64,000 nt of DNA from Deltaproteobacteria bacterium (GTDB lineage: Bacteria; Desulfobacterota; Syntrophia; Syntrophales; UBA5619): positions 66,476-130,475 of the forward strand of contig JAJFTY010000054.1 of NCBI GenBank assembly GCA_021372695.1. The letters are read 5' to 3'. Each line of letters opens with the position of its first letter. Positions within the stretch are counted from its first letter, which is position 1. A model generated the notes under the pieces. The model saw only the letters and a program-made list of their open reading frames with translations, ran no database searches and was not told the origin of the DNA. Made by a program: the position numbers and the translations under genes. Shown in pieces: positions 42,501 through 61,672 of the stretch.

Positions 42501-42507
42501 CATGAAA

Positions 42508-42554
42508 TGCCGGTCATCCTGCTGTAGTCAGGATGACCGGCACGAACTTTTTTT
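42508..42554 (+). terminator. Intra-operon terminator/attenuator after binding-protein gene 1
   Basis: TGCCGGTCATCCTG (42508-42521), loop CTGTAGT, CAGGATGACCGGCA (42529-42542): a perfect 14-bp stem, then ACGAAC and seven T (42548-42554). Its place between the binding protein and the ATPase suggests partial termination, giving more binding protein than membrane components. Confidence 0.8.
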
Positions 42555-42601
42555 ACCCCTGGTTCTGTATAGAACTCTCAACATCTATGCGAGGATAGAC
42601 G

Positions 42602-43687
42602 ATGGCCAGAGATCTCAAACTGGAAAATCTCACCAAGCACTACGGGAATCTCACAGCCGTGGATCATGTGAACCTGGAGATCAAGGAGGGGGAGTTCATC
42701 TGCTTTCTGGGACCCAGCGGTTGCGGAAAAACCACGATCCTCAGGATGATCACCGGATTCGAGACGGTCACCTCGGGGAGCGTGATTTTCAACGATCGCG
42801 TGATCAACGATCTCATCCCCAAGAAGCGTGAATTCGGGATTGTGTTCCAGTCCTACGCGCTTTTCCCGAACATGACCGTGGAGGAGAACATCGCCTTCGG
42901 CCTGAAGATGCGGAAGATGCCGAAGAAGTTCGTCGCGGAACGGGTGGACAAGATGCTCGAACTGATCGGCCTCTCCGACTGGCGCAGACTCTATCCGGCC
43001 CAACTCTCCGGAGGGCAGCAGCAGCGCGTCGCCCTGGTCAGGGCTCTGGCCCCGGATCCCCAGGTCCTGCTCCTTGACGAGCCCCTGAGCGCCCTTGATG
43101 CGAAAATCAGGCTCCGCCTGCGGGCGGAGATCAAGCGCCTGCAGCAGGAGTTGAAAAAGACGATGATCCATGTGACCCACGACCAGGAAGAGGCGCTCTC
43201 CATTGCCGACCGCGTCGTCGTCATGGAGAAGGGTGAATTCCGTCAGGTCGGACGGCCGATCGACATCTACAAGAATCCGAGCTGCAACTTCGTGGCGGAC
43301 TTCGTGGGGACCTCCAACTTCTTCGAAGGCCGCCGCAACGCCGATGTCGTCGATATCGGCTGCCGGAAGATCCGGGTGACCCGCAACGGCAACGGTGCGC
43401 AAGAGAGGGTCACGCTGGCCATCCGTCCGGAGAATGTCGAGGTTTTCAAGCAGGATTCCGCCCCCGAGGTGCCCGAACCGATGAACCTCCTGACCGGCCG
43501 CATCGCGGTCGTGGTCTTCCAGGGGGCGGCCGTCCGGCTTCTCATCCAGGCGGGGCAGGAGGAGATCATCTCCGACATCATCGAAAAGGAGTTCGAGCAG
43601 CGCGGACTGAAGCAGGGGGATCAGGTCTATGTCTACTGTTCGCCCGAATCCTACCTGGTGTTTCCCGAAGGAGGGGGAAAGCAATGA
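42602..43687 (+). CDS. ABC transporter ATP-binding protein (system 1)
   Basis: A 361-residue PotA/FbpC-type ATPase: Walker A GPSGCGKTT, Q-loop FQSYALFP, signature LSGGQQQRVALVRAL, Walker B VLLLDEPLSALD, H-loop VTHDQEEAL, and a C-terminal TOBE domain (about 240-355). It overlaps the permease by ATGA. An inverted repeat GTTCT-GTAT-AGAAC lies about 30 bp upstream of its start. Confidence 0.92.
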   Translation: MARDLKLENLTKHYGNLTAVDHVNLEIKEGEFICFLGPSGCGKTTILRMITGFETVTSGSVIFNDRVINDLIPKKREFGIVFQSYALFPNMTVEENIAFGLKMRKMPKKFVAERVDKMLELIGLSDWRRLYPAQLSGGQQQRVALVRALAPDPQVLLLDEPLSALDAKIRLRLRAEIKRLQQELKKTMIHVTHDQEEALSIADRVVVMEKGEFRQVGRPIDIYKNPSCNFVADFVGTSNFFEGRRNADVVDIGCRKIRVTRNGNGAQERVTLAIRPENVEVFKQDSAPEVPEPMNLLTGRIAVVVFQGAAVRLLIQAGQEEIISDIIEKEFEQRGLKQGDQVYVYCSPESYLVFPEGGGKQ

Positions 43688-45432: not shown

Positions 45433-45448
45433 CGGGGGGCATGAGAAC

Positions 45449-46219
45449 ATGAATGTCATCGATCCGAACAATCCCATTCCCAAATACCTGCAGATCAGCG
45501 CCTGGATCAGGGAACTGATCCAGTCGGGGAGATACGAGAAGGGGGCCTCGCTGCCTTCGGAGGTGGAGCTGGCAAGGATCTGTCAGGTGAATCGCAATAC
45601 GCTCCGGCAGGCCATTTCGGAGCTGAGTACGGCGGGGGTGCTGCGGCGGGAAAAGGGACGGGGGACTTTCGTCTGCGCAGAGACCCCCCTGGCGATCACG
45701 CACAAGCTCAAGAGCATTTCCAGCTTCAGCGCCGATCTGCACGAACTGGGGATCAGAGAGAAGACCCGGATCGTCAAGAAGGGCCAGGAAGAGGCGAAGG
45801 AGCAGGTGGCCAAGAAGCTGATCCTGGGACCGAACGCTAAGGTGGTCGCCATCCGCCGACTGCGCACGGGTAACGATGTGCCCTTCATTTACGAGGAGAG
45901 TTTTCTCCCCGCAACGAAATTTTCGGAGATTCTGAAGATGGACCTGACCGGCTCCATGTATCAGATCATCGACGAATGTTTCAACGTCACCCTGGCCCGG
46001 TCCGACCAGACCATTCGTGCGATCAATCTCAAGGGCCGCATCGCCTCATACTTGGGTCTTCCCGAGAACTCGGCAGCCTTCTTCATGGAGAGCCTGACCT
46101 TCGACGAGAACAATATCCCCGTGGAACTGCTCCATTCTTATTACCGGGGTGACAAGTACGTCTTTGAAGTTGAGCTGGGGCGCTACCATATTGAGGAAGA
46201 CAAGGTTCATCACGATTAG
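45449..46219 (+). CDS. GntR/HutC-family (UTRA domain) regulator
   Basis: A 256-residue regulator: winged HTH (about 8-75, with LPSEVELARICQVNRNTLRQAISELSTAGVLRREKGRGTFV) and a C-terminal UTRA ligand domain (about 95-245). Start 45449 is preferred over an upstream ATG at 45419 that overlaps the permease end. Sitting between the transporter and the enzyme genes, it likely controls both. A perfect TGTATATACA palindrome in the downstream gap is a good candidate operator. Confidence 0.88.
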   Translation: MNVIDPNNPIPKYLQISAWIRELIQSGRYEKGASLPSEVELARICQVNRNTLRQAISELSTAGVLRREKGRGTFVCAETPLAITHKLKSISSFSADLHELGIREKTRIVKKGQEEAKEQVAKKLILGPNAKVVAIRRLRTGNDVPFIYEESFLPATKFSEILKMDLTGSMYQIIDECFNVTLARSDQTIRAINLKGRIASYLGLPENSAAFFMESLTFDENNIPVELLHSYYRGDKYVFEVELGRYHIEEDKVHHD

Positions 46220-46292: not shown

Positions 46293-47495
46293 ATGAATAA
46301 GGTTAATATGTTGGAGAAACTGGTCGCGGTCAGCCCCGGCATGGAAATTTGGTGGGATTCCTCGCCGGTCATCTTCGAAAACTGGTGCCGGAAGTTGCTC
46401 GTCAAAACCCCGGAGGAAGGCGAGCAGGAGGTGCTCCAGTGCCAATTTGCGAGGATGTACGACGGGAAGAATCCTGACGCCTGGCTCTTCCGCGGCGTAA
46501 CGACCAATCCCTCCCTCTCCCTCCAGGCGATCAAGGATAACGAGCCCTACTGGAAGGGTGTGGTGAAGGGAATGATCGAGGAGAATCCGGGAATCGACAA
46601 GGAGTCCCTCTTCTGGCTCCTCTACAAGGAGATCATCCGGCGTGGCTCGACGATGTTCCTCCCACTCTTCGAGAAGAGCGGCCACAAGGAGGGGTACCTT
46701 TCCGGACAGGTGGACCCGCGCAAGTGCTACGACCGGGACGTCATGCTCAAACAGGCCTACGATCTGGCTTCCATCAATCCCAACGTCATGATCAAGGTCC
46801 CGGGCACCAAGGAGGGGTACGAGGTGATCGAAATCCTCACGGCCCAGGGGATCGCCACGAACAACACCCTGACGTTTGTGCTATCGCAGCTCATGGACTG
46901 CGCCAAGTCCGTGCAGCGGGGGCTGGAGAAGGCCAAGGCCAATCACGTGGATCTGACCCGCTGGCGCTCCGTGATCACCCACATGGAGGCGCGCTACGGC
47001 GATCTGGGAGGGCTGCGTGATTTTGCCAAGGAAAAGGGCGTCGAGCTTTCCGAGGGCGAGGTCCGCTGGGCGGAACTGGCGATTTTCAAGAAGGCCTACC
47101 GGCTCATCAAGGAGAGGAAGTACCCGAGCAAGCTCCTCTCCTGTTCGCTCCGGGTGGGGCCGAAGGTGGACGGTACGCTGCGGGTCTGGCACCTTGAGGA
47201 GAAGGCGGGTGCCAACATCGTGGTCACCTGCCCGCCGGGCTTCATCGACGAGGTGATCCATTTCCCCGGCCAGGAGAACATCGTCTTCGAGAAGGGGAGG
47301 ATCGACCGGGAGATCCCGAAGGAAACGCTGGAGAAGTTGCTTCGGATCCCCTATTTCGCGCGGGCCTACGCCGAGGACGGCTATACCCGCGACGAATACA
47401 GGACCCTTCCTCCGCTGATCAAGACAGCGGAACAGTTCAGCAAGGCAACCGACGACATGGTGGCGTTTGTCGGGAAATGTATCGATGAAAAATAG
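46293..47495 (+). CDS. Transaldolase-family protein
   Basis: A 400-residue TIM-barrel protein of the transaldolase family: FRGVTTNPSLSL, YLSGQVDPRKCYD, and NVMIKVPGTKEGYEVIEIL, where K171 (within MIKVPG) is the Schiff-base lysine. NNTLTFVLSQL follows. It is longer and more divergent than housekeeping transaldolases, and no other pentose-phosphate gene is near. GACAAGGAGGAATA precedes the ATG. Its operon context (binding-protein transporter, GntR, aminotransferase) suggests an aldol cleavage or transfer on a specific imported compound, not central metabolism. Substrate unknown. Confidence 0.75.
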   Translation: MNKVNMLEKLVAVSPGMEIWWDSSPVIFENWCRKLLVKTPEEGEQEVLQCQFARMYDGKNPDAWLFRGVTTNPSLSLQAIKDNEPYWKGVVKGMIEENPGIDKESLFWLLYKEIIRRGSTMFLPLFEKSGHKEGYLSGQVDPRKCYDRDVMLKQAYDLASINPNVMIKVPGTKEGYEVIEILTAQGIATNNTLTFVLSQLMDCAKSVQRGLEKAKANHVDLTRWRSVITHMEARYGDLGGLRDFAKEKGVELSEGEVRWAELAIFKKAYRLIKERKYPSKLLSCSLRVGPKVDGTLRVWHLEEKAGANIVVTCPPGFIDEVIHFPGQENIVFEKGRIDREIPKETLEKLLRIPYFARAYAEDGYTRDEYRTLPPLIKTAEQFSKATDDMVAFVGKCIDEK

Positions 47496-47524: not shown

Positions 47525-48619
47525 ATGAAACCCCTGAAGGATTGGTTTGTTCCATGGCTTCTGACCGCCCGGGAGTACAACACCGCCATACTCGACAAGG
47601 CCTGGGCGAAGCCCGATTACGGTCGTCTGATGCTCAATGAGAATCCGGTGCCCCCGTCGGACAAGGTGATCAAGGCGGTGACCGATATCCTCTCCAAGGG
47701 GAACCGTTATCCGGACAGCATGCTCCGGCTGCGGACCAAACTGGGAAAGCTCCACAACCTGGGACCGAACAACATCGGCCTGTGCAATGGCTCTTCCGAG
47801 ATCATCGACTGCATGATGCGGATCTTCCTGGAACCCGGAGATGAATTCATCGTTTCCAATCCGACGTTCGGACTCTTCCCCCCGCGGGCGGAACTGGTCG
47901 GCGGGAAGGTGATTTCTGTGCCCCTGCGCAAGGAGGACCTCCAGTACGACACGGATGCCATGCTCAAGGCCATCACCCCCAAAACCAAGCTGATGCTCGT
48001 CATCAACCCCAACAACCCAACAGGCATCTTCATCGACGACAAGGACCTGATCCGTTTCTGCGAGACGGGGATCCCCCTCTGCGTCGACGAGGCCTACCTG
48101 GACTACCACCCCCAGATTCCCTCGAAGGACTTCCTGCTCAAGAAGTATCCGCAGGTGTTCCTCTCCCACACCTTCTCGAAGGCTTACGGGTTTGCCGGCA
48201 TCCGCTTCGGGTATGTGGTCGGTACCGAGGAGATGGTCGCTGCATTCAACCGGATGTTCCTGCCCTGGAACGTGAGCCTGATGGCGATGGCCGCGGCCGA
48301 GGCGATCCTCGACAACCCGGAGGAACTGGCCGCCAAGGTGAAGCACAACAACCGCTGGATGGAGATCTTCACCAAGGAACTGGTCCAGGTGGGATTGAAA
48401 CCTTTCCCGGCCCACGGCAATTACATGCTCATCGACGCCACCATGACCGGCAAAGCCACCGCCCAGATTCTGGCGGCAGCATTGGAGATGGAGCATATCT
48501 TCCTCAAGAGCATCTCTCCGATCCACGGCAAAGACGGTTATTTCCGGGTGACGCCGGGCGTGGACGCAGAAAACGAGCGCTTTATCCGTTTCGTCCACAA
48601 CTACTTCGGGAAACGTTAA
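47525..48619 (+). CDS. HisC-like PLP-dependent aminotransferase
   Basis: A 364-residue fold-type I enzyme resembling histidinol-phosphate aminotransferase: LNENPVPPSDKVI, GNGSSE-like CNGSSEIID, NPNNPTGIF, DEAYLDY and HTFSKAYGFAGIRFGY with the PLP lysine. CobD (threonine-phosphate decarboxylase) has the same fold and cannot be excluded; it would fit a corrinoid theme. No his genes are nearby. Immediately downstream of the transaldolase-like gene (29 bp), so same operon. A hairpin follows the stop. Confidence 0.78.
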   Translation: MKPLKDWFVPWLLTAREYNTAILDKAWAKPDYGRLMLNENPVPPSDKVIKAVTDILSKGNRYPDSMLRLRTKLGKLHNLGPNNIGLCNGSSEIIDCMMRIFLEPGDEFIVSNPTFGLFPPRAELVGGKVISVPLRKEDLQYDTDAMLKAITPKTKLMLVINPNNPTGIFIDDKDLIRFCETGIPLCVDEAYLDYHPQIPSKDFLLKKYPQVFLSHTFSKAYGFAGIRFGYVVGTEEMVAAFNRMFLPWNVSLMAMAAAEAILDNPEELAAKVKHNNRWMEIFTKELVQVGLKPFPAHGNYMLIDATMTGKATAQILAAALEMEHIFLKSISPIHGKDGYFRVTPGVDAENERFIRFVHNYFGKR

Positions 48620-48741: not shown

Positions 48742-49509
48742 GTGAAGATTTACGTATGCATGAAACACGTCCCCGACACGGCTGCCAACATCAGGCCACT
48801 GGGGGGAGTCGAATTCGATGAGTCGGTCAAGTTCATCGTCAATCCCTATGACGAATACGCGATCGAACAGGCACTCCTGATCCGGGAAGTTGAATCCGGG
48901 GCGGAGATCGTCGCGGTGTCGATCGGAAAGGCCGCGGCCGCCTCCACGCTGCGGACCGCCCTCGCGGTGGGCGCCGACCGCGGTATCCTGGTCCAGACGG
49001 ATGCCTATTTTACCGAGCCTGCCGAAACGGCGCGGCTGCTGCACCGGGCCATCTCACTGGACGGCGCTCCGGATCTCATCCTGACCGGCCGCCAGTCGGT
49101 CGACTCGGAGGGGATGCAGACCCCGTACCGGCTGGGCGTTCTCTTCGATATGCCCGTGGCCGTCAACGCGACGGCCTTCGCCATGGCGGAAGGGATGGTC
49201 ACGGTGGAACGGGAGATCGAAGGGGATGTCTGTGAGGTGATCGAGATGCCCCTGCCCTGCATCGTCGGCGCGACCAAGGGTCTCAACCGCCCGCGTTCGG
49301 CCACCCTTCCGGAGATGATGAAGGCCAGGAAAAAGGAGATCCGGGTGATTCCCGCGACGGATTTCGGCCCTGCGCCTGCCATGCCCGGTGTGGAACTGCT
49401 GGAGCTTGAGGCAGTCCCGGACCGTGGTCGCGGGCGCATCCTGAAGGGCCGTCCGGAAGAGATGGTGAAGGCGCTTCTGGATGCCCTCGAGACGTGCCGG
49501 ATGCTGTAG
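48742..49509 (+). CDS. etfB: Electron transfer flavoprotein subunit beta
   Basis: A 255-residue ETF beta: KIYVCMKHVPDTAANIRP start, NPYDEYAIEQAL, GRQSVDSEGMQTPYRLG (the ADP/AMP site and ETF signature) and CIVGATKGLNRPR. GTG start at 48742 with a weak AGGA upstream. Together with etfA it accepts electrons from the adjacent dehydrogenase-like flavoprotein. Confidence 0.9.
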   Translation: MKIYVCMKHVPDTAANIRPLGGVEFDESVKFIVNPYDEYAIEQALLIREVESGAEIVAVSIGKAAAASTLRTALAVGADRGILVQTDAYFTEPAETARLLHRAISLDGAPDLILTGRQSVDSEGMQTPYRLGVLFDMPVAVNATAFAMAEGMVTVEREIEGDVCEVIEMPLPCIVGATKGLNRPRSATLPEMMKARKKEIRVIPATDFGPAPAMPGVELLELEAVPDRGRGRILKGRPEEMVKALLDALETCRML

Positions 49510-49575: not shown

Positions 49576-50538
49576 ATGGCGAAAATCGGCGTTCTCATCG
49601 AGACGAGTGGCGGTGAGGTCAAGAAGACCACCCTAGGCATCCTGGCGGCGGCAAGGCAGGAACCGGAGGCGGAGGTGTTTGCGATCCTTCTGGAGCCTTG
49701 CGCGGAGGAGTGTGACGGGGTGCTGCGGCAGTACGGTGCGGATCGGATCGTGCAGATCCAGACGCCGGAGCCGGATATCGCCTCTTTTCCGGAGGGGCAG
49801 GCCGCGCTCTTGGCCTCGGCTGTTGATCATTTCGCACTCGACGCCCTTCTCGGCATCTCCGGTCAGAAGGGAAGGGACCTGCTGGCGCGGGTCGCCGCGC
49901 TTCTGTCGGCGCCCCTGGTCCTCGATTGCCTGCACGTCGATCTCTCCCGGGGGATCGTCCGGAAATCGCATTTCTCCGGCCGGACAACGGCCATTCTCCG
50001 GTTGAACGTACGGCCCTGGATTCTGGGAATTCGGCCCAACGTCTTTCCCGAGCGCATCGATCCCCGGCCAGGGGAGGTCATTGTCCATGAAGCGCCCATT
50101 CCGATCCCGAAAAGGGTGGCCATCCGCCAAATCCGGCGGGGCGATGCCGGAGGCCCGGACGTTTCCGAAGCCGAGATTGTCATCTCCGGAGGGCGGGCCC
50201 TGGGATCGGCGGACAATTTCCGATTGCTGCGGGAGTGCGCCTCCCTCCTCGGCGCGGCGGTCGGAGCTTCCCGGGCGGCAGTGGATGCCGGGTACGCGCC
50301 GCATGCGATGCAGGTCGGTCAGACCGGAAAAACCGTCAGCCCCAGACTCTACATCGCCTGCGGCATCTCTGGGTCCGTCCAGCACTTCGCGGGAATGAAG
50401 ACCTCCAAGGTGGTCGTGGGCGTGAATACCGATCCGGACGCTCCCATTTTCCAGAAATGCGACTACGGCCTTCTCGGCGATCTGTTCGAAGTCGTGCCCG
50501 CGCTGACGAAGGCGCTCGGTTCGAAACAAGCGGGATAA
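49576..50538 (+). CDS. etfA: Electron transfer flavoprotein subunit alpha
   Basis: A 320-residue ETF alpha with the FAD-binding C-terminal domain: VSGGRALG-like VISGGRALGSADNF, VGQTGKTVSPRLYIACGISG, HFAGMKTSKVVVGVNTD and DYGLLGDLFEVVPALTKAL. No N-terminal ferredoxin or bifurcation-type extension is visible. Immediately upstream of the DMGDH-like gene, whose family uses ETF as electron acceptor. Confidence 0.92.
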   Translation: MAKIGVLIETSGGEVKKTTLGILAAARQEPEAEVFAILLEPCAEECDGVLRQYGADRIVQIQTPEPDIASFPEGQAALLASAVDHFALDALLGISGQKGRDLLARVAALLSAPLVLDCLHVDLSRGIVRKSHFSGRTTAILRLNVRPWILGIRPNVFPERIDPRPGEVIVHEAPIPIPKRVAIRQIRRGDAGGPDVSEAEIVISGGRALGSADNFRLLRECASLLGAAVGASRAAVDAGYAPHAMQVGQTGKTVSPRLYIACGISGSVQHFAGMKTSKVVVGVNTDPDAPIFQKCDYGLLGDLFEVVPALTKALGSKQAG

Positions 50539-50682: not shown

Positions 50683-53103
50683 ATGCGTGACAGTGCACGG
50701 GTTGTGATCATCGGCGGAGGCATCGTCGGCTGCAGCATCGCCTATCACCTGACCAGGATGGGGTGGCGGGATGTGCTCATCCTGGAAAAGGGGGAATTGA
50801 CCAGCGGCTCGACCTGGCATGCGGCGGGTCTTGTAGGACAGCTCCGCTCTCACCGGGACGTCACCCGGATGCTTCAGTACAGCGTCAGCCTCTACAAGAC
50901 CCTGGAGGCGGAGACGGGACTGACCACGGGCTGGAAACAGAGCGGATGTCTCCACCTGGCCAGCACCCAGGAGCGGATCCTCGAATTGAAGAAAGGGGCC
51001 ACCACGGCCCGCAGCTTTGGCCTCGATCTTCACATGATCACCCCGGAAGAGGCGCGGAATCTCTGCCCGATTCTCAACATGGACGGGATCATCGGCGCGG
51101 CCTTCATGCCGTCGGACGGCCAGGCGGACCCCAGCGGTCTGACCATGGCCATGGCCAAGGGGGCCTTGAACCGCGGTGCCACGATAGAGCAGAAGACCCT
51201 GGTGACGGGATTCGAGATCCGCCACGACCGCGTCGAGGCCATCCTGACGGACAAGGGCAGGATCCGCTGCGAAACGGTCGTGAACGCCGCCGGCATGTGG
51301 GGCCGCGAGATCGGCCGGATGATGGGCGTCAACATTCCCCTGGTTCCCTTCCAGCACCAGTACCTCGTGACCGAGGCGATCGAGGGGGTACCGCCGAACA
51401 TGCCGACGCTCCGCGACAAGGACAGCCTCCTCTACTACAAGGAGGAGGTGGGGGGGCTCGTCATGGGCGGTTACGAACGCGACGGCATCCCCTGGTCCAT
51501 CCGGGGGATTCCCAAGGGGTTTACCCAGGAGCTTCTGGAGCCCGACTTCGACCATTTCGAGTCCATATCACAGGCGGCCGTGAACCGGACCCCCTGCCTC
51601 GGGACGGCCGGGATCGCACGTCTGGTCAACGGACCGGAGGCCTTTACCCCGGATGGGAACTGCATGCTGGGGCCGGCCCCGGAACTTGCGAACTGCTTCG
51701 TCGCCGTCGGGTTCAATGCATTCGGAATCGCGGCCGGCGGCGGCGCCGGCAGGATGGTAGCCGAATGGATCGTCGAGGGGGAACCGAGCCTCAACATCTG
51801 GCCCCTCGACATCCGCCGTTTCGGCCAGTACCACCGGAGCCTCAACTACAATGTCGAACGGACCAAGGAGATCTACGGCAAGCACTACACCATCTCCTGG
51901 CCCCATGAAGAGCACGATTCGGCAAGGCGGGTAAAACGGTCGCCGCTCTACTGGCTCCTGAAGGAGAAGGGGGCGGTGTACGGGGCCAAGTACGGCTGGG
52001 AGCGGGCCAACTGGTTCGCCCCGGCCGGGGTGGAAGCGAAGGACGTTCCGACCTTCGGGATTCCCAACTGGTTCCAACATGTGGCCGCGGAGCACAAAGC
52101 GGCCCGAGAGGCGGTGGTCCTGATCGACCAGAGCTCGTTCAGCAAGTTCGAGGTTTCGGGAGCGGGGGCCCTGGCGTTCCTCAATCGCGTCGCCGCGGCC
52201 AACCTGGACCGGCCCGTGGGATCGACGGTCTATACCCAACTCTGCAACGAACGGGGCGGGATCGAGGCGGACATCACCATCTCCCGGACGGCGGAGCAGA
52301 CCTTCTTCCTGATCACGGGGACAGCCTTCGGGGTGCACGATTTCCAGTGGCTCAAAAGGCACCTGCCGACGGACGGGTCCGTTCTTCTTCGCGATGTGAC
52401 CTCTGCCTTTGCGATGATCAATGTCTGCGGTCCCAAGTCGCGCGAGCTCCTGCAGCGCCTGACCGAGGATGATTTTTCGAACGAAGCCTTTCCCTTCAGT
52501 CGGTGCCGCCAGGTCGTGATCGGCTACGCGCCGGTGCTGGCACTCCGGGTGACCTACATCGGAGAACTCGGCTACGAACTCTACACGCCGCCGGAGTATG
52601 CCGCCGGCCTCTACGAGGCCCTCTGGGAGGCGGGGCACGATGTGGGCATCCGCAACGCGGGGTATCGGGCCATCGACTCGCTCCGACTGGAGAAGGGCTA
52701 CTGCTACTGGGGCGCCGAGGTGTCGCCCGATTACACCCCTTACGACGCGGGCCTCGGCTTTGCCGTGAGCCTGGACAAGGGGCCTTTCGTGGGGCGTGAT
52801 GCCCTCATGAAGATCAAAAAGGATGGGCCGGCCTGGAAACTCTGCCTCTTCACGCTGGAGGCCGACCGGCCGATGCTTCTCTACGGAGGGGAAACCATCA
52901 CCTGCCGGGGGAACGTCGTGGGCGTCGTTTCCAGCGGCGGCCACGGTCACACTGTGGGAAAGACCATCGCGCTCGGTTACCTGTCTGCTTCCGATGCGAA
53001 GGCGTCCGACGGTTTTGCCGTTGAAGTCTTCGGGGAATCCTTCCCGGCCGTCCGTTGGTCCCGGCCTCCGTACGATCCGGAACGGCGGCGGATTTTCTTG
53101 TAG
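50683..53103 (+). CDS. Dimethylglycine/sarcosine dehydrogenase-like flavoprotein (FAD + GcvT domains)
   Basis: An 806-residue protein of the DMGDH/SARDH family, which oxidatively removes an N-methyl group, passes electrons to ETF, and hands formaldehyde to tetrahydrofolate. N-terminal DAO domain: VVIIGGGIVGCSIAYHL (FAD site) and SGSTWHAAGL, where H46 matches the His that binds FAD covalently in rat DMGDH and sarcosine dehydrogenase. The C-terminal GcvT-type THF-binding region (about 430-800) has GGIEADITISR, YIGELGYELYTPPEY, GLGFAVSLDKGPFVGRDAL. It sits beside etfAB and corrinoid methyltransferases, so its substrate is probably an N-methylated amino acid. Exact substrate open. Confidence 0.85.
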   Translation: MRDSARVVIIGGGIVGCSIAYHLTRMGWRDVLILEKGELTSGSTWHAAGLVGQLRSHRDVTRMLQYSVSLYKTLEAETGLTTGWKQSGCLHLASTQERILELKKGATTARSFGLDLHMITPEEARNLCPILNMDGIIGAAFMPSDGQADPSGLTMAMAKGALNRGATIEQKTLVTGFEIRHDRVEAILTDKGRIRCETVVNAAGMWGREIGRMMGVNIPLVPFQHQYLVTEAIEGVPPNMPTLRDKDSLLYYKEEVGGLVMGGYERDGIPWSIRGIPKGFTQELLEPDFDHFESISQAAVNRTPCLGTAGIARLVNGPEAFTPDGNCMLGPAPELANCFVAVGFNAFGIAAGGGAGRMVAEWIVEGEPSLNIWPLDIRRFGQYHRSLNYNVERTKEIYGKHYTISWPHEEHDSARRVKRSPLYWLLKEKGAVYGAKYGWERANWFAPAGVEAKDVPTFGIPNWFQHVAAEHKAAREAVVLIDQSSFSKFEVSGAGALAFLNRVAAANLDRPVGSTVYTQLCNERGGIEADITISRTAEQTFFLITGTAFGVHDFQWLKRHLPTDGSVLLRDVTSAFAMINVCGPKSRELLQRLTEDDFSNEAFPFSRCRQVVIGYAPVLALRVTYIGELGYELYTPPEYAAGLYEALWEAGHDVGIRNAGYRAIDSLRLEKGYCYWGAEVSPDYTPYDAGLGFAVSLDKGPFVGRDALMKIKKDGPAWKLCLFTLEADRPMLLYGGETITCRGNVVGVVSSGGHGHTVGKTIALGYLSASDAKASDGFAVEVFGESFPAVRWSRPPYDPERRRIFL

Positions 53104-53247: not shown

Positions 53248-54249
53248 ATGACCGGCAAGAGAAGATTCATCGGTTTTGTCCTGCTCGCGGCCCTGCTGTG
53301 CGTGATGATGGCAGCGGCTCCTCTCTGTTGGGCGCAACCGGAGCTGCGCGTCTACACCCACAATGAGACGGCCGAGATGGAAAAATGGGTCCCGGTGGCG
53401 GAAAAGGCGATCGGCATGAAGATCGTCTGGAGTCCCCGCCTGGCGTCGAATGAACTGTGGACCCGTGTCCTGACGGAAAATCCCAACTTCAACGCCGACG
53501 TGATCTGGGGTTTCCTGAACTCCGACGCCCAGGTAGGCGCACAGAGGGGGTTCTTTGTGCCCTACGCGTCGCCGGCATGGGCCGATATCCCGGCAGAATT
53601 CAAGGATCCGGATCATCAGTGGTACGGCTACAACTACTGGTTTTCCGCCATCGCCGTGAACCCGGACCTGCTGAAAAAGAAGAACCTGCCCAAGCCCCAA
53701 TCCTGGGTCGACCTGACCAATCCCGTCTACAAGGGCGAAATCGTGATGCCCGATCCGGCCACCAGCGGCACGGCCTTTATCTTCGTCTCTGCGGTCATGC
53801 AGATTTTCGGCGAGAACAAGGGATGGGAGATCCTCGAGAAGATTCACAAGAACGCCGGACAGTACACCAAATCCGGTTCGGCGCCGGCCCAATCCGTAGC
53901 CCAAGGGGAGTACGCGATCGGGATCAGCTGGGACCAGGCCGTCTATGGCAGGGTCGAGCAGAAATTCCCCATCGAGGGGCTCATCCCCTCGGAAGGCACC
54001 GCGTTTGACCTGGAGTCCGTGGCGATCCTGAAAGGGACCAAGAACCTGGTCGGCGCCAAGAAACTGGTCGATTGGCTCGGTACCAAGGAAGGCCAGACCC
54101 AGATCGGTCTCCTTCGCTCGAAGGTGACACGGCCCGGCGTTCCCGGGAAGGTTCTCGTCGATCCCAAACTGATCAAGTATGACGCGCTCTGGGCCGGGGA
54201 GAACAAGAAGCGGATCATGGGCGAGTGGGCCAAACGTTTCTCCAAATGA
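53248..54249 (+). CDS. ABC transporter substrate-binding protein, Fe3+/polyamine type (system 2)
   Basis: A 333-residue periplasmic binding protein with a signal peptide (cleaved near PLCWA-QPE). Same broad family as system 1 but clearly distinct: ELRVYTHNETAEMEKW, LTENPNFNADVIWG, NLPKPQSWVDLTNPVYKG, MPDPATSGTAFIFV and QYTKSGSAPAQSV. GAAGGAGGGAAC precedes the ATG. Neighbouring N-demethylation genes suggest an organic amine rather than iron. An extended hairpin lies between it and the permease gene. Confidence 0.8.
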   Translation: MTGKRRFIGFVLLAALLCVMMAAAPLCWAQPELRVYTHNETAEMEKWVPVAEKAIGMKIVWSPRLASNELWTRVLTENPNFNADVIWGFLNSDAQVGAQRGFFVPYASPAWADIPAEFKDPDHQWYGYNYWFSAIAVNPDLLKKKNLPKPQSWVDLTNPVYKGEIVMPDPATSGTAFIFVSAVMQIFGENKGWEILEKIHKNAGQYTKSGSAPAQSVAQGEYAIGISWDQAVYGRVEQKFPIEGLIPSEGTAFDLESVAILKGTKNLVGAKKLVDWLGTKEGQTQIGLLRSKVTRPGVPGKVLVDPKLIKYDALWAGENKKRIMGEWAKRFSK

Positions 54250-54261
54250 TCGTTGGGCCCC

Positions 54262-54335
54262 TTTGAAGTCTTCATCCCCCGGCAAGCGGGATATCGTTTC
54301 GACCCGATGCGCGCCCCGGGGATGAAGATTTCAAA
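54262..54335 (+). repeat. Long hairpin between binding-protein gene 2 and its permease
   Basis: TTTGAAGTCTTCATCCCC (54262-54279) pairs along 18 positions with GGGGATGAAGATTTCAAA (54318-54335), with one G-U pair. A smaller CGGG/CCCG hairpin lies in the 38-nt loop. No T-run follows. It may protect the upstream binding-protein mRNA and lower expression of the permease. It also argues that the permease starts downstream (54382), not at the in-frame TTG at 54253. Confidence 0.75.
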
Positions 54336-54381
54336 ATCGGCCAGGTTTCTCTCCCGTCCAAACAGTCGTCGAGGCAACAGG

Positions 54382-56319
54382 ATGCCATTTCCGGGTAGTG
54401 TAGCCCTGAAGCAGCAGGTGGATGACTTTCGCCATCTCTTCCGTCGTCCGGGTCTGCTCTTCGTCACCACTGTCGCGGTGCTGTTGATCTTTCTGTTCAT
54501 CGTTTTGCCGATCGGATCGGTCCTGACCAAGAGCTTCACGGTCAGCTACCCGACGGTGACCATCGCCTATCCGGACGCCGGGGGCGGGGAGGCGGAGAAA
54601 AGGGCCGCCGAGTCCCTCCGCCAGATTCTGCAGGGAATACAGGGCATTGAACAGACCCGGTTCCAAAAAGAGGATGGGACGGCCGTCCATACCGTCCGCT
54701 TCCGCAAGGAATGGGACGATCTCAAGGGTTTCAACGACATCAAGCGGGCGATCAAACGAAACAAGGCTAACCTGGACCCGCTCGTCGCGGGAGCCAAACT
54801 CTCGCTCGGCAAGGAGGCGACGGCGAGCCTCGCCACCTACGGGGATTTCTTCTCCGGCGGGCGGTATTACCGGGCCCTGAAAAACAGCATCGTCGTCGCC
54901 ATCGTCACCACGCTCCTGGTGATCCCGCTCGCCTTCTGCTTTGCCTATCTGGGACTGAAGGGGCCGGGCGTGCTGAAGTTGCCTCTGAGGATGCTCGGGC
55001 TCATTCCGCTGGTCGCACCCCCCTTCATCTTCTCGCTCGCCCTGATCATCATCGGCGGTCGCCACGGAATTCTGACGCAGTTTCTGAACCTGCCCTTCAA
55101 CATCTACGGCTGGCGGGGGGTGATCATCGCCCAGGTGATCACCTTCCTGCCGCTGGGCTACCTGATGATCGAAAACGTTCTGCGCTCCCTGGGCTCCAAC
55201 CTGGAGGAGGCCGCCTATGACATGCGCGCCTCGGATTGGCAGATCCTCTACAAGATCACGATCCCCCTCGCGGCCCCGGGGATTCTGAAGGCCTCGCTCC
55301 TCGTGTTCATCCTTTCGATTGCCGACTTCGGAAATCCGATGCTGATCGGGGGGGATGTCCCTTTCCTCTCCACAGGCGCCTATCTTCTGTGGGTCAGTGA
55401 CAACAACCTGGAGATGGCGGCGGTCTTCTGCGTCTTCCTGGTGCTGCCCAGCATGATCATCTTCGTGGTGAACGAGTATCTCCTCAAGGGGAAGGCCTAC
55501 ACCACGATCGGCGGCAAGCCTCAGCAGACGGAGCGCCGTCCGATCGCCCCGAACATCCTCTACCCGATGCTGGCGCTGGCGGCCCTCGCCTCGGCGGTCA
55601 TCCTGGTAAGCTTCGGTGTCATTTTCTTCGGGGCCTTCACCAAGATCCTGATGGTGGACAACACCTGGACGCTCGACCATTTCCGGAGCCCCAACGGCTT
55701 CCGGACGCTGATCACGAGCCTCAAGTTTTCGCTGGGGGCCGCCATGGTCGCCCCCGCGGTCGGCGTCACGCTCTCCTACATCCTGGTCCGCAAAAGGATC
55801 CCGCTGAAGAAGGTTCTGGAGTCTCTGGCCCTATTGGGTTTTGCCGTTCCCGGGACGGTCATGGGGATCGGCTATATCCTGGCCTTCAACCACCCGCCCC
55901 TGCAACTCACCGGGACCTTCATCATCCTGATCGTCAACGAGGCGTTCCGCAACCTCTCGGTGAGCCTCGAAGCCGGCGTCGGCAAGCTGCATCAGATCGA
56001 CGTGGCCATCGAGGAGGCGGCGGCGGACATGGGCGCGGGCTCTTTCCGGATATTTTTCAAAATCGTTCTGCCCCTGATCAGCTCCGCCTTTGTCGCCGGC
56101 TTCATCTACACATTCATGGTCGGCATGATCGCGGTGAGTGCGGTGATCTTCCTGATCACCCCGGGCAATGACCTAGCGGCGCTGTACATCCTGAACGTCG
56201 CCGAGCAGGGGTATCTGGGGATGGCCTGCGCGATCTCGACGATGCTGATTGCGGTCGTCCTGGCCTGCATGGGTGGCCTGAAGCTTCTGCTCAAATACAC
56301 GAAAACCGAGGTGTTCTGA
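54382..56319 (+). CDS. ABC transporter permease, fused two-domain, with periplasmic insert (system 2)
   Basis: A 645-residue membrane protein with two permease domains; EAA loops at LEEAAYDMRASDWQILYKITIP and IEEAAADMGAGSFRIFFKIVLP. After the first helix (LFVTTVAVLLIFLFIVLPIG) comes a ~110-residue soluble insert before YYRALKNSIVVAIV, which is absent from the system 1 permease and recalls the MalF P2 loop that contacts its binding protein. ATG 54382 has GAGG 7 bases upstream and lies after the hairpin. Next gene is the ATPase. Confidence 0.85.
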   Translation: MPFPGSVALKQQVDDFRHLFRRPGLLFVTTVAVLLIFLFIVLPIGSVLTKSFTVSYPTVTIAYPDAGGGEAEKRAAESLRQILQGIQGIEQTRFQKEDGTAVHTVRFRKEWDDLKGFNDIKRAIKRNKANLDPLVAGAKLSLGKEATASLATYGDFFSGGRYYRALKNSIVVAIVTTLLVIPLAFCFAYLGLKGPGVLKLPLRMLGLIPLVAPPFIFSLALIIIGGRHGILTQFLNLPFNIYGWRGVIIAQVITFLPLGYLMIENVLRSLGSNLEEAAYDMRASDWQILYKITIPLAAPGILKASLLVFILSIADFGNPMLIGGDVPFLSTGAYLLWVSDNNLEMAAVFCVFLVLPSMIIFVVNEYLLKGKAYTTIGGKPQQTERRPIAPNILYPMLALAALASAVILVSFGVIFFGAFTKILMVDNTWTLDHFRSPNGFRTLITSLKFSLGAAMVAPAVGVTLSYILVRKRIPLKKVLESLALLGFAVPGTVMGIGYILAFNHPPLQLTGTFIILIVNEAFRNLSVSLEAGVGKLHQIDVAIEEAAADMGAGSFRIFFKIVLPLISSAFVAGFIYTFMVGMIAVSAVIFLITPGNDLAALYILNVAEQGYLGMACAISTMLIAVVLACMGGLKLLLKYTKTEVF

Positions 56320-56334: not shown

Positions 56335-57471
56335 ATGGGTTTAAACGGCTCCTCCATACTGGAATTGCAGAATATCGTCAAGCGCTTCGGTACGATGACG
56401 GCGGTCAACCATGTCTCCCTGGATCTGGAAAAAGGGAAACTGATCACCTTCCTGGGCCCCAGCGGCTGCGGCAAGACCACCCTGCTTCGCGTGGTCAGCG
56501 GATTTACCGTTCCTGATGAGGGGAGGGTCCTTCTCGACGGGGAGGACATCACGGAGGTCCAGCCCAACGCCCGGGACACGGCCATGGTCTTTCAGAACTA
56601 CGCCCTCTTTCCGCACATGACCGTGGCCGACAATATCGCGTTCGGCCTCAGAATCATGAAGAAACCGAAACGGGAGGTCGCCGACGAGGTCGAACGGCTG
56701 CTTTCGCTGGTCCAGATGGAGGGGCTAGGGGGAAGGCGTCCCCATGAGCTCTCCGGCGGCCAGCAGCAGCGGGTGGCCCTGGCCCGGGCGCTCAGCCTCC
56801 ACCCGAAAATCCTCCTTCTGGACGAGCCGCTCTCGAACCTCGACGCCAACTTGCGCCTGCTGATGCGGGGCGAGATCCGCAAACTCCATCGCCGCCTGGG
56901 CCTCTCCATCATTTTCGTCACCCACGATCAGGAAGAGGCGATGTCGCTTTCGGATCAGCTCGTGGTGATGGATCAGGGGGTGGTGAAACAGATCGGCTCC
57001 CCGACGGAGATCTACGAGACCCCGGTCGACGAATTCGTCGCGCGGTTCATCGGTCACATCAACTTCCTGCCGGGCGAGGTCACGGCAGTCCGGGAGGGCC
57101 GGATCACTTTCCGGACCTGCCACGGCGACTGGTCGGTCGCGCAGCCCTCCTTTCCCGTTGCTCCGGGCGAACGGATGGAGGCGGTGGTGCGCCCCGAATC
57201 GATCGGCATCCGCGCAGCGGACGAGCCGCACGGTGAGGAAGAGACCAACGTCATCGAAGGCCGCGTGGAATTTGCGATGTACATCGGTGCGATCATCCGC
57301 TATACGGTGCTCTGCGGAGAGCAGACGATGTACATCGATGAGACCGATCCCCAGTATACGGGGATCCTGAAGGAGGGGACCCGGGTCCGGCTCTCCTTCA
57401 AAGACCGGATACACATGCTCCGGTTGGGGGCCGCCGTTCCAGGGCCGGAACGGGGAGGGGATCACTCATGA
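56335..57471 (+). CDS. ABC transporter ATP-binding protein (system 2)
   Basis: A 378-residue ATPase with Walker A GPSGCGKTT, FQNYALFP, ELSGGQQQRVALARAL, ILLLDEPLSNLD, VTHDQEEAM and a C-terminal TOBE domain (about 240-360). Its stop overlaps the MttB start (ATGA), so transport and methyl transfer are translationally coupled. This is the best evidence that system 2 imports the methyl donor. Confidence 0.93.
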   Translation: MGLNGSSILELQNIVKRFGTMTAVNHVSLDLEKGKLITFLGPSGCGKTTLLRVVSGFTVPDEGRVLLDGEDITEVQPNARDTAMVFQNYALFPHMTVADNIAFGLRIMKKPKREVADEVERLLSLVQMEGLGGRRPHELSGGQQQRVALARALSLHPKILLLDEPLSNLDANLRLLMRGEIRKLHRRLGLSIIFVTHDQEEAMSLSDQLVVMDQGVVKQIGSPTEIYETPVDEFVARFIGHINFLPGEVTAVREGRITFRTCHGDWSVAQPSFPVAPGERMEAVVRPESIGIRAADEPHGEEETNVIEGRVEFAMYIGAIIRYTVLCGEQTMYIDETDPQYTGILKEGTRVRLSFKDRIHMLRLGAAVPGPERGGDHS

Positions 57472-58928
57472 ACTGGGCGGAATTCCTGACAGCGCAGGAG
57501 GTGGAGCGGGTGCACGAGGCGTCGCTTTCCATCCTGGAAGAGACGGGCATCCTGGTGCGCAATGAAAAGGCGCGCAAGATCTTCGCGCAGGCGGGATGCC
57601 GTGTGGAGGGCGAAACGGGGGTGGTCAAGATCCCCGGGAAGGTGGTCGAAGCATACAGCAAGGCTTTCCCTCACTCCTTCACCTTCCGCGGCCGCGACCC
57701 CCGGTACGACCGCACCATTCCGGAAGAGGGGCCGATCATGATTACCGCAAGCTCCGCACCGGACATCATCGATCCGGAAACGGGCGAACGGCGGAGGGCC
57801 ACTGCCGGGGACATAGCCCGGATTGCGGCGCTTGTCAACGAACTGCCGGGATATGACGTCTTTTCGATCTCGACCCTGGCCGCCGATGCGCCGCCCGGGC
57901 TCGGGAGCGTGGCGCGGTTCTACCCGGCCCTGAAGAACTGCCTGAAACCCGTTCGCAGCAACACGCCGAACATGAGGGAGCTTCAGGAGGTGCTGGAACT
58001 GGGGGCCCTCATCGCGGGCGGCGAAGAGGCGTACCGGGAGAGGCCCCTCATCAACCACCACTACTGTCCCGTGGTCTCTCCCCTCACCATGGATGTGGAG
58101 TCCACGGAAGCGGTGATTCATCTGACCGGGAAGGGGCTGCCGGTCTACGGAACGATCTGTCCCAACGCCGGGATGAGCTCGCCGCTCAGCCTGCTTGCGA
58201 CGCTGGCCCAGGGAAATGCGGAGTTTCTGGCGCTCGCCGTGCTGATGCAGATGATCAAGAGCGGCGCCCCGCTGATCTATGCCGTTCTGGCCACCGTGGC
58301 CGACATGAGGACCGGAAATTACGCCCCCGGTGGGATCGAGACGGCCATGCTTCAGATCGGATTCAGCCAGATGGCCCGCCGCTACCGTGTCCCTTCGGGA
58401 GGGTATATCGGCCTGACGAACGCGCATATGAACGATGCGCAGTCCGGCTATGAAACGGGGATGGGCACCACGGCGGCCCTGCTGGGAGGGGCCGACATGC
58501 TCAACATGGGCGGGCTCCTGGGAAGCCTGATGGTGTTCGACTTTGCCAAGGCGATGATCGATCATGAAATCGCGATGATGCTGAAGCAGCTGCGCAGGGG
58601 CATCCGATTCCAGCCGGACGATCTCTGCCTGGGGCTTATCGGCGAGGTCGGACCGGGCGGCACCTTCATGGATCAGATCCATACGCTGGAGAAGATGCGC
58701 ACGACGGCCTATCTGCCGAAGATTGCGACGCGGGAGATGGGGGAACGCTGGGAACAGGAGGGGCGAGCGGAGATCGGATCCCGCGCCCTGAAAGAGGCAA
58801 AACGGATGTGGGCACCGAAAGGCCCCGCCCTCTTCGGCGCAGAGCTGGACCGGAAGATCCTCTCCCGGTTTCCCGGATTGGGATCGGTCGCGGATTCGGG
58901 GGCACAGGGGCGTCATTTAAAGGGGTGA
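57468..58928 (+). CDS. MttB-superfamily corrinoid-dependent methyltransferase (non-pyrrolysine)
   Basis: A 486-residue TIM-barrel methyltransferase of the trimethylamine methyltransferase (MttB) superfamily: VHEASLSILEETGILV, NTPNMRELQEVLELG, GTICPNAGMSSPLSLLATLAQGNAEFLA, NDAQSGYETGMGTTAALLGGADMLN, and HTLEKMRTTAYLPKI. The frame is open throughout with no in-frame amber, so it is not a pyrrolysine enzyme. By recollection the archaeal Pyl lies in the DA-x-GYE stretch, here with Gln325. Characterised non-Pyl members act on glycine betaine, proline betaine or carnitine. The ATG overlaps the ATPase stop; a matching corrinoid protein follows 5 bp later. Confidence 0.88.
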   Translation: MNWAEFLTAQEVERVHEASLSILEETGILVRNEKARKIFAQAGCRVEGETGVVKIPGKVVEAYSKAFPHSFTFRGRDPRYDRTIPEEGPIMITASSAPDIIDPETGERRRATAGDIARIAALVNELPGYDVFSISTLAADAPPGLGSVARFYPALKNCLKPVRSNTPNMRELQEVLELGALIAGGEEAYRERPLINHHYCPVVSPLTMDVESTEAVIHLTGKGLPVYGTICPNAGMSSPLSLLATLAQGNAEFLALAVLMQMIKSGAPLIYAVLATVADMRTGNYAPGGIETAMLQIGFSQMARRYRVPSGGYIGLTNAHMNDAQSGYETGMGTTAALLGGADMLNMGGLLGSLMVFDFAKAMIDHEIAMMLKQLRRGIRFQPDDLCLGLIGEVGPGGTFMDQIHTLEKMRTTAYLPKIATREMGERWEQEGRAEIGSRALKEAKRMWAPKGPALFGAELDRKILSRFPGLGSVADSGAQGRHLKG

Positions 58929-59625: not shown

Positions 59626-60276
59626 ATGGAGAAGCAGGAGCTGTTGGAGGGGCTGAGAGACGCGATGGTGTCTCTGGAAAAGGAGAAGGTCCTGGACCTG
59701 ACGAAAAGGGCGCTGGAGATGGAGCTGGCGCCGCTGGAGGTGATCGATCAGGGGCTGCTGCCGGGGTTGACGGAGATCGGCAAACAGTTCGAAAACGAAG
59801 AGGTCTTTCTGCCGGAGCTGATGCTATCGGCCATGGTGTTCCAGAACGCGATGGCCATCCTCCAGCCGCGGATCCAGGCCCTGGGGGCGAATGCGCGCAA
59901 ACGGGGAACCGTGGTGATCGGCACCGTCAAGGGGGACATGCACTACATCGGGAAGAACATCGTCAGGCTGATGCTGGAGATCAATGGTTTTGAGGTGCAC
60001 GACCTCGGCGTCGACGTCGATCCTCTGAAATTCGTCCAGAAGGCCCGGGAGGTCCGGGCGGATATCATCGCCCTTTCGGCGCTCCTGACGACAACCCTCG
60101 TTGGCCAGCGGGATGTGATCGAGGCGCTTCGGGGGCTGGGGGTCCGCGACCAGTTCAAGGTGATGGTGGGCGGGGGCGCCGCGACGAAAAAATGGTCCGA
60201 GGAAATCCAGGCGGACGGCTATGCGGAGACGGCCTACGCCGCCGTGGCGATGGCCGGATCGTTCGTGAAGGCCTGA
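59626..60276 (+). CDS. Methyltransferase cognate corrinoid protein 2 (MtmC-like)
   Basis: A 216-residue paralogue of corrinoid protein 1, with cap and B12 domain; VKGDMHYIGKNIVRLML gives D104, H106 and G109, but the usual Asp after the His is Tyr107. SALLTTTLVGQRDV and MVGGGAATKKW follow. Length is near that of archaeal MtmC. It precedes the MtmB-like gene by 16 bp, so that enzyme is its probable partner. Confidence 0.88.
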   Translation: MEKQELLEGLRDAMVSLEKEKVLDLTKRALEMELAPLEVIDQGLLPGLTEIGKQFENEEVFLPELMLSAMVFQNAMAILQPRIQALGANARKRGTVVIGTVKGDMHYIGKNIVRLMLEINGFEVHDLGVDVDPLKFVQKAREVRADIIALSALLTTTLVGQRDVIEALRGLGVRDQFKVMVGGGAATKKWSEEIQADGYAETAYAAVAMAGSFVKA

Positions 60277-60292: not shown

Positions 60293-61672
60293 ATGATTGA
60301 TCTGATCGAAGTATTCGACCGGGCGGATCAGGGTCCGCTGATCTCGGACACCGACTACTACATGGGGCGCTTCGTGCCGAAACTGGCCGAGGTGATCGGC
60401 CGCCACCGGATCACATGGGACAAGAACACCATCGTCAACACCGACGACGACCTGGCCGATCGGGTTTTCCAGGCGGCCATCGATCTGATCGCGGAAGCGG
60501 GGGCCTACTGTTCCGACAGCAGCCGGGTGATGGAATTCAGCCGGGATGAGGTCCTCCGGGCGGTCGAACAGGCCCCGAAGTGCGCCCGGTTCGGCGAGGG
60601 GCGGGAGGCCAAGACCATGTACGGGCGGTCGGTGGACGATCCGTCCCGTCCCTGGATCCACATCGGCGGCGGCATCTACACCACCGACGAACAGATCTAC
60701 CTGGACACGGTGGAGGGGATGGCCGCGATCGGCATCGTGGACTCGCTCAGCGTCCCCTCGATCCTTCACCTGCGGGGAAAGGACGCCCGGGTCCGTTCGC
60801 CGCAGGAGCTTCTCTCCGCAATCAAGACGGTGATCCTGGCGCGGGAGGGGATCAGGCGATCCGGCCGGGCCGGGCTTCCGATCATCAACGGAATTTCCGC
60901 CGCATCGAACGCGGTATCGATGATCGCCGCCGCCGCCCCTCAGTTCGGGCTCCGGACCAGCGACGGTTTCCTGGTCGACTTCCTCTCCGAAATGATCGTC
61001 AACTACGAGGCGCTCCAGAAGGTGGCCTACTTCAGCAGCATCAGCGCCAACATCGGCTCCACCTCGACGCCGCTCTTCGGCGGCTACGCCGGCGGAGCAG
61101 AGGGCGTCGCGGTGCTGGCCACCGCCTACCTGATCATGGGAAACCTTATCTACCGGGGCAGCTACCACTACAACGCGCCGCTGCACCAAAGCCTCCATCT
61201 CTCTTCGACCAAGCCCCTCCTCTGGGCGATCGGGATATCCAACCAGGCCAATGCCCGAAACATGCGCTATCCCACGGTCAACCTCCCCTACCTAGGAGGG
61301 GGAGCGGGGAGCAGGATGTTTCACTACGAGATGGCCGCCTACATGCTGGCCGTGGTGCCGGCGGGCGGAAACATCTTTTCCGGGCATCCCGCCAAGTCGG
61401 TTGAGCCCGATTCCCTGCTGCCTTGGGACCATCAGTTCCACGCCGAAATCGGCCTCGCCGCAGCAAAGTACAGCCGCAGGGAGGCCGAGCCGCTGGCGCA
61501 GCAATTCTACAGGAAGTATGAGGGGATGATCCGGAATCCCGAGCCGGGGTTCAGGTACGCGCAGGTCTATGACCTGAAGACCAAGAAGATCGTCAACGCC
61601 GATTACCTGCGCGTTCAGGATGCGGTGCGGGCGGAGTTTAACGGTTTGGGGTTCGAAGTTTTCCCCTCGTGA
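60293..61672 (+). CDS. MtmB-family methyltransferase without pyrrolysine
   Basis: A 459-residue protein that matches archaeal monomethylamine methyltransferase MtmB (458 residues) along its length: AEAGAYCSDSSRVMEFSRDEV, GEGREAKTMYGRSVDD, SPQELLSAIKT, GRAGLPIING, STPLFGGYAGGAEG and the tail YDLKTKKIVNADYLRVQDAV. Methanosarcina MtmB has pyrrolysine (Pyl202) eight residues into the GRPGMAV-Pyl-G stretch; the matching residue here is I198 (codon ATC, 60884-60886). The frame has no internal amber. It probably demethylates a different N-methyl compound using corrinoid protein 2. Substrate unknown. Confidence 0.82.
   Translation: MIDLIEVFDRADQGPLISDTDYYMGRFVPKLAEVIGRHRITWDKNTIVNTDDDLADRVFQAAIDLIAEAGAYCSDSSRVMEFSRDEVLRAVEQAPKCARFGEGREAKTMYGRSVDDPSRPWIHIGGGIYTTDEQIYLDTVEGMAAIGIVDSLSVPSILHLRGKDARVRSPQELLSAIKTVILAREGIRRSGRAGLPIINGISAASNAVSMIAAAAPQFGLRTSDGFLVDFLSEMIVNYEALQKVAYFSSISANIGSTSTPLFGGYAGGAEGVAVLATAYLIMGNLIYRGSYHYNAPLHQSLHLSSTKPLLWAIGISNQANARNMRYPTVNLPYLGGGAGSRMFHYEMAAYMLAVVPAGGNIFSGHPAKSVEPDSLLPWDHQFHAEIGLAAAKYSRREAEPLAQQFYRKYEGMIRNPEPGFRYAQVYDLKTKKIVNADYLRVQDAVRAEFNGLGFEVFPS

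Follow-up and report, generated by a model that had tools for sequence, protein, structure and literature searches.

The existence of the rare amino acid pyrrolysine (Pyl) is attributed to a need for it in the use of simple methylamines. The subject of this report is a Pyl-free member of the monomethylamine methyltransferase (MtmB) family, encoded in a stretch of 64,000 nucleotides (hereafter the window) from Deltaproteobacteria bacterium (Syntrophales, UBA5619; assembly GCA_021372695.1, contig JAJFTY010000054.1, positions 66,476 to 130,475 of the forward strand). The class of non-Pyl MtmBs is already known. MtqB of Methanococcoides methylutens Q3c demethylates tetramethylammonium and choline and has low monomethylamine activity, the quaternary amine methyl being transferred to Co(I) by an MtmB fold that lacks Pyl (Kashyap et al. 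2026, PMC13044021). The sections of that paper available here call MtqB the first non-Pyl MtmB with a demonstrated function, place it near the Pyl MtmBs, and present a phylogeny of 1,061 MtmBs; no function is known for its other non-Pyl members. In 'Ca. Formimonas warabiya' DCMF a non-Pyl MtmB was reported as the most induced protein on dichloromethane (2022, PMC9768040); by its description it belongs to the same non-Pyl MtmB superfamily as the window protein. In Eubacterium limosum the MttB member MthB is reported to demethylate phosphocholine made by the choline kinase MthK (PMC12155760). For 2-trimethylaminoethylphosphonate (M3AEP), a 2023 paper gives two iron oxygenases as the only described pathway (PMC10590968), and the available sections of PMC10574752 and PMC10590968, which cover TmpA/TmpB and the PhnW/PhnX and PbfA pathways, do not describe corrinoid-dependent demethylation of aminophosphonates. 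Our search of the open-licence PubMed Central literature found no link of MtmB or corrinoid demethylation to phosphonates, although both terms occur in PMC8692437, and in the literature surveyed, some of it as excerpts, neither a function for the branch to which the window protein belongs nor its proposed substrate class was found assigned. A preliminary description of this DNA, which considered non-Pyl MtmBs hardly characterised, was therefore nearly right: the others have no known function, while that of MtqB has been published (PMC13044021, in the sections available).

We give an even chance to the reading that the window protein is a Pyl-free, MtxB-type substrate-side corrinoid methyltransferase, located in a cluster for the import and anaerobic demethylation of a trimethylammonium compound that bears a phosphate or phosphonate. 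By analogy, the candidate compounds would be phosphocholine or M3AEP, in which the phosphate or phosphonate lies near the nitrogen. The gene and its diagnostic codon are as follows.

60293..61672, + strand: non-pyrrolysine MtmB-family methyltransferase, 459 aa
60884..60886, + strand: Ile198 codon ATC, aligned with Pyl202 of M. barkeri MtmB1

Family membership and the presence of Ile198 at the Pyl202 position, both proposed in the preliminary description, are borne out. The PF05369 profile matches with 216.4 bits (gathering score 25) over model positions 1-449 of 450, the predicted structure is an intact MtmB-type TIM barrel, and MtmB length and the landmark stretches GRAG, FGGYAGG and YDLKT...YLRVQDA are kept. 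The frame has no in-frame stop, and the site following GRPGxG, where Pyl-type MtmB has TAG, is ATC. Among the 120 listed of 191 homologues (the window's own included), this position is occupied by Ile in 89, Leu in 30 and Arg in one. The polar residues E229, E259 and Q333, which we take to surround Pyl in MtmB (our literature search gave no confirmation), are aligned with Leu, Thr and Leu in all 14 loci of the window clade, where Y335 is kept throughout; one listed homologue, P0085, has Ala in place of Thr at the E259-equivalent position. Pyl-bearing sequences (1nth, L026, L077, L096 and L097) retain all four residues (EEQY) in the alignments. The whole site is therefore altered, beyond a single residue, and the suggestion made at the outset that a different substrate or activation chemistry is involved appears likely. 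Compared with M. barkeri MtmB1 (1nth/1l2q; PF05369), the window protein shares fold, length, family and an adjoining corrinoid gene, but is only 24-25% identical, falls in a separate branch and has neighbours that differ from those of the two Pyl MtmB loci counted (L096 and L097). Monomethylamine is, judging from the replaced residues and the ill-fitting neighbours, an unlikely substrate.

Phylogenetic analysis places the window protein, in a tree of 72 sequences, within a starred non-Pyl group of 35 that is nested in a starred non-Pyl group of 62; the three Pyl sequences are placed elsewhere, and several distant sequences have long branches. A tree of 62 sequences included methanogen non-Pyl MtmBs (P0207 and P0249 of Methanococcoides methylutens, and others), which join the Pyl group (100/99); the window clade falls on the opposite side of the deepest split, which is itself weak (88/79). 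The window protein is 24-29% identical to five of these methanogen proteins. It differs in position from the group containing P0249 (possibly MtqB). Like MtqB, it is a non-Pyl MtmB homologue with an adjacent corrinoid gene, of MtbC type in the case of MtqB (PMC13044021, as far as available). As the trees are unrooted, they show absence of Pyl in the window clade and give no direction of change; the statement in the preliminary description that the protein "has lost" Pyl does not follow, since the clade sits inside a wholly non-Pyl branch and Pyl members form one group elsewhere, and a recent loss is not proven. Four non-Pyl proteins nested among Pyl members (P0147 and P0154, both with Lys, P0165 and P0193) are better candidates for a possible real loss. 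Seven MtmBs resembling Pyl members (P0122, P0123, P0124, P0147, P0150, P0154 and P0157) carry Gln, Cys or Lys in place of Pyl and keep most EEQY residues; these may be true replacements or TAG codons read through by the gene caller.

The absence of pyl genes anticipated at the outset does not hold for all genomes: PylS was above cut-off in 10 of 21 genomes carrying the family (draft assemblies), including all seven Actinomycetota genomes searched, one of which (G006) carries a Pyl MtmB together with a member of the window clade. PylS was not above cut-off in the draft assemblies G001, G002 and G004, which hold Desulfobacterota relatives of the window protein.

Genomic neighbourhoods were compared in loci (L numbers) of which 25 came from a first genome search and more were added by later searches, wider stretches being taken for some. 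Counts used 89 distinct MtmB sequences that aligned over 400 residues or more. For the comparison between groups, six partial copies of L017/L018 were then removed, and it covered 36 loci of the broad branch, 29 distant non-Pyl loci and two Pyl loci. The broad and distant groups were drawn from the tree by ourselves, and L083 and L154 were counted as distant, yet lie fairly near the broad branch in the 62-sequence tree. A corrinoid gene adjoins MtmB in 13 of the 14 clade loci, the window included (the fourteenth locus, L166, itself ends 248 bp away), so the conserved corrinoid partner sought from the beginning is present. An MttB subfamily member occurs within 10 kb in 10 of the 14, and MttB, corrinoid protein (COR2) and MtmB are consecutive in eight loci (L002, L005-L010 and L012), forming a conserved MttB-corrinoid-MtmB triad. 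A putative choline-kinase-family gene is found within 10 kb in 7/14 clade loci, 84 to 5284 bp from MtmB; its product matches Pfam Choline_kinase (112.8 bits in L007) and choline kinase 4r77 (E 1.6e-23). Other genes within 10 kb in these 14 loci encode MtbB (four), OpuAC (two), ATP-binding cassette (ABC) importer 1 (two) and a dimethylglycine-dehydrogenase-like (DMGDH-like) enzyme (two). A DMGDH-like gene is likewise no more than 2 kb away from MtmB in L001 and in three closely related loci of Methylomirabilota. By gene content the clade thus resembles the MthB/MthC/MthA/MthK cluster of E. limosum, in which a non-Pyl MttB, a corrinoid protein and a choline kinase are likewise brought together (PMC12155760, as far as available); the word MtmB does not occur in the main text of that paper, and the window cluster differs in that no kinase was found in it and in possessing ABC importers and a DMGDH-like enzyme. 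The dimethylamine methyltransferase MtbB lies near choline-kinase-family and non-Pyl MtmB genes in L007, L008, L010 and L012. The L007 gene has one TAG at the end of its first part, after which the frame continues, and the other three gene calls are split at the same place. The presence of a Pyl enzyme inside a choline-type cluster was unexpected.

In sister clades, genes for PhnW, PhnX or PbfA are found within 10 kb of MtmB in L015, L016, L019, L023 and L024, the distances ranging from 8 bp to 9.3 kb. Of these genes, three for PhnW, three for PbfA and two for PhnX were tested, and all eight score above a curated NCBIfam cut-off. Tandem or near-tandem non-Pyl MtmB pairs are seen in L013, L015, L016, L019, L023 and L024. 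A corrinoid gene and a member of the MttB subfamily accompany the pair in L013, L015, L016 and L019, and in all six loci except L013 a gene for PhnW, PhnX or PbfA is found within 10 kb. We also searched, with profiles and so independently of the choice of query proteins, 30 whole genomes picked for carrying the MtmB family; for scale, 20 kb around a gene make up some 0.5% of a genome of 4 Mb. PhnX was above cut-off in two of the 30, both copies lying 108-130 bp from an MtmB gene. Family matches to PhnX occurred in five genomes, three of them below the cut-off with scores of 114-115 bits; those in G292 and G312 lie 1.8 and 7 kb, respectively, from an MtmB of the broad branch, and that in G368 is elsewhere. 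PhnW-family matches were obtained in 23/30 genomes: seven above cut-off, three from Methylomirabilota below it at 305-325 bits, and the remainder weaker. Of the seven, three (in the genomes of L015, L016 and L024) are within 10 kb of MtmB. Low-identity 'PbfA' matches (27-38%) in L080, L081, L082, L085, L090 and L091 were not counted as PbfA; one match each from L080, L082, L085 and L090, when tested, was below the PbfA cut-off or better matched by other families. Guanitoxin-family NCBIfam matches of kinases and aminotransferases, all below cut-offs, were set aside as generic. Genome G292 contains 12 MtmB-family matches (L134, L140, L073 and L145-L153), partly fragments, together with PylS.

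The MttB proteins near broad-branch MtmBs are 56-69% identical to that of the window. Six others are 27-32% identical, namely those of L096 (near a Pyl MtmB), L161, L174, L177 and L178 (near distant MtmBs) and the second MttB of L019; this comparison covers 21 sequences of more than 380 residues and leaves out L085 (29%) and L173 (34%). The subfamily was found in 14 of 36 broad-branch and none of 29 distant non-Pyl loci (Fisher p 1e-4), and at least one of kinase, Phn gene and importer 1 in 17/36 against 0/29 (Fisher p 6e-6). These three marker groups do not overlap among the 17 loci having any, which is suggestive only, as few overlaps are expected by chance. The Pyl MtmB loci L096 and L097 have MtbB and lack the subfamily MttB, kinase, Phn and importer 1 markers, and an ordinary methylamine operon was rejected as a description of the window cluster. 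Phosphocholine and trimethyl-aminoethylphosphonate are close analogues. It is from the occurrence of one MttB subfamily in both choline-kinase loci and phosphonate-gene (PhnW/PbfA/PhnX) loci, from the analogy between the two substrates and from the precedent of MthB that the phosphocholine/M3AEP substrate class is proposed.

Within the window, a series of genes lies upstream of MtmB on the same strand:

41478..45432, + strand: ABC importer 2 (Pfam), comprising solute-binding protein 41478-42500 (phnS2 325.8 bits, cut-off 392.75), ATPase 42602-43687 and permease 43684-45432
45419..46219, + strand: GntR/UTRA regulator (UTRA, GntR); top NCBIfam match GntR_LSA1692 (145.4 bits, cut-off 275), followed by PhnF (135.2 bits, cut-off 156.8)
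46293..47495, + strand: transaldolase-family protein (TAL_FSA)
47525..48619, + strand: HisC-like aminotransferase; TIGR01141 256 bits (cut-off 276.55)
48742..49509, + strand: electron transfer flavoprotein (ETF), second (beta-type) subunit (ETF domain)
49576..50538, + strand: electron transfer flavoprotein alpha (ETF_alpha)
50683..53103, + strand: DMGDH-like flavin adenine dinucleotide (FAD)/folate enzyme (DAO, GCV_T domains); E 1.4e-173 to solved dimethylglycine dehydrogenase 4p9s
53248..54249, + strand: ABC importer 1 solute-binding protein; phnS2 (TIGR03261) 254.7 bits (cut-off 392.75)
54253..56319, + strand: ABC importer 1 permease (BPD_transp_1); PhnU2 263.1 bits (cut-off 593.25)
56335..57471, + strand: ABC importer 1 ATPase (ABC_tran, TOBE_2); best NCBIfam PhnT2 372.2 bits (cut-off 457.7), a near tie with PotA 371.5
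57468..58928, + strand: non-Pyl methyltransferase of the MttB superfamily, with Leu in place of Pyl; Pfam MTTB 277.6 bits
58934..59566, + strand: COR1, second corrinoid protein (B12-binding domains), 5 bp after the MttB gene
59626..60276, + strand: COR2, corrinoid protein (B12-binding domains), 16 bp upstream of the MtmB gene; TIGR02370 208.7 bits (cut-off 215.3)

The gene order regulator, HisC-like aminotransferase, transaldolase, corrinoid protein, MtmB is kept in L084, L171 and L172, from three genomes of one class of the phylum Desulfobacterota. Since these loci join the upstream genes to COR2-MtmB, 41478-61672 is plausibly one unit, with the upstream set belonging to the same system as MtmB. 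The nearest solved relatives of both solute-binding proteins include 4r72 (AfuA), presumably a sugar-phosphate binder, and the pyridoxal-phosphate binder 6wce, with 8x1a in addition for importer 1. Directly downstream of MtmB (61753-62448) is a nitroreductase-family gene with a weak BluB-like match (51.6 bits, cut-off 150), and further on (62549-63280) a gene for an IMP cyclohydrolase-like protein (PF07826, 204.6 bits), whose NCBIfam PurO matches are below cut-off. One query each for an acceptor methyltransferase (MeTr) and a corrinoid reactivase (RACo) gave no match in the window.

In the proposed pathway, the substrate would be taken up by the PhnS2-like ABC importers. The quaternary amine would then lose its first methyl through the non-Pyl MttB, with Co(I) in a corrinoid protein as the acceptor. 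One methyl of the resulting tertiary amine may be oxidised off by the DMGDH-like enzyme with ETF and folate, and another methyl would be passed on by the non-Pyl MtmB to COR2, the shared corrinoid protein. We infer both the order of these steps and which methyl MtmB takes; should its own substrate also be a quaternary amine, the main type used by MtqB, there is no longer a puzzle of how a secondary or tertiary amine is activated without Pyl. Three demethylating enzymes are encoded in the window (MttB, MtmB and the DMGDH-like enzyme), as they are in L013, L015, L016 and L019 (MttB and two MtmBs; L019 has in addition an incomplete MtmB and a further, distant MttB) and in L007, L008, L010 and L012 (MttB, MtmB and MtbB). 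Three such enzymes for three methyls suggest stepwise removal. The count does not hold for L017, which has three MtmBs, or for L023 and L024, which have two each; no MttB was found in these three loci. It is possible, although doubtful, that this MtmB branch, the dedicated MttB subfamily and the shared corrinoid protein together achieve full O2-independent demethylation of phosphocholine and N-methylated 2-aminoethylphosphonates, taking methyls off tertiary or secondary amines without Pyl and freeing the amine for PhnW/PhnX-type cleavage.

Several observations weigh against a phosphate- or phosphonate-bearing substrate. Choline kinase, PhnW, PhnX and PbfA were not found in the window by tblastn with the relatives' proteins, so the substrate proposal is borrowed from relatives. 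All importer matches (PhnS2/T2/U2) are below curated cut-offs, and as both solute-binding proteins fall under the TIGR03261 cut-off they do not qualify as parts of a 2-aminoethylphosphonate importer; the top NCBIfam family of the regulator is likewise not a phosphonate one. The aminotransferase and transaldolase have no explained role in the pathway. Four of the seven above-cut-off PhnW genes are away from MtmB, 19 of the 36 broad-branch loci lack all three marker groups, and the MttB of the broad-branch locus L085 is only 29% identical to that of the window and several kb from MtmB. The comparison of broad and distant loci is itself biased in favour of the proposal, the marker queries being taken from the broad branch and neighbouring loci sharing ancestry.

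A glycine betaine route is unlikely. In it, MttB would be an MtgB-like glycine betaine methyltransferase, the DMGDH-like protein a true dimethylglycine dehydrogenase operating with ETF, and sarcosine or another betaine the substrate of MtmB. The best PDB relative of the window MttB is MtgB (9yce, E 1.2e-57), the similarity to dimethylglycine dehydrogenase is strong and the ETF genes are adjacent to it, and in L003 and L004 an OpuAC importer lies no further than 5 kb from MtmB. These importers and the DMGDH-like enzyme both suit glycine betaine too, which counts against our proposal. The Leu at the Pyl position is common to the window MttB and MtgB and is therefore of no use for telling substrates apart. 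Choline-kinase-family and phosphonate genes, however, are needless for glycine betaine and recur near the MttB/MtmB pair, and the window solute-binding proteins are PhnS2-like. The kinase neighbours would also fit an arrangement in which MttB takes phosphocholine while MtmB, like MtqB with QMA (tetramethylammonium) and choline (PMC13044021, in the sections available), demethylates free choline or tetramethylammonium. We consider this quite improbable, as the window protein has low identity to the methanogen non-Pyl MtmBs and lies in the other part of the tree, and neither choline kinase nor OpuAC matches were obtained in the window.

It is very improbable that the MtmB-like protein works on the acceptor side (the MtxA role), passing the corrinoid methyl to folate or a thiol and leaving MttB as the sole substrate enzyme. 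That Pyl is present after all, through recoding elsewhere in the frame, or that the gene is a decayed copy, is refuted at the sequence level and practically untenable: the codon at the site and the uninterrupted frame speak against it, as do the intact predicted fold and the finding that no stop lies within the window-clade MtmB matches found in genomes.

The proposal that the window MtmB and its relatives act on phosphate- or phosphonate-bearing amines supplies concrete candidate substrates for members of the MtmB family currently annotated as monomethylamine methyltransferases. It suggests an anaerobic entry into trimethyl-aminoethylphosphonate, as opposed to the oxygenase pathway set out in the available sections of PMC10590968. 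A Pyl-free MtmB branch tied to phosphate or phosphonate amines would also provide a direct test of what pyrrolysine is for.
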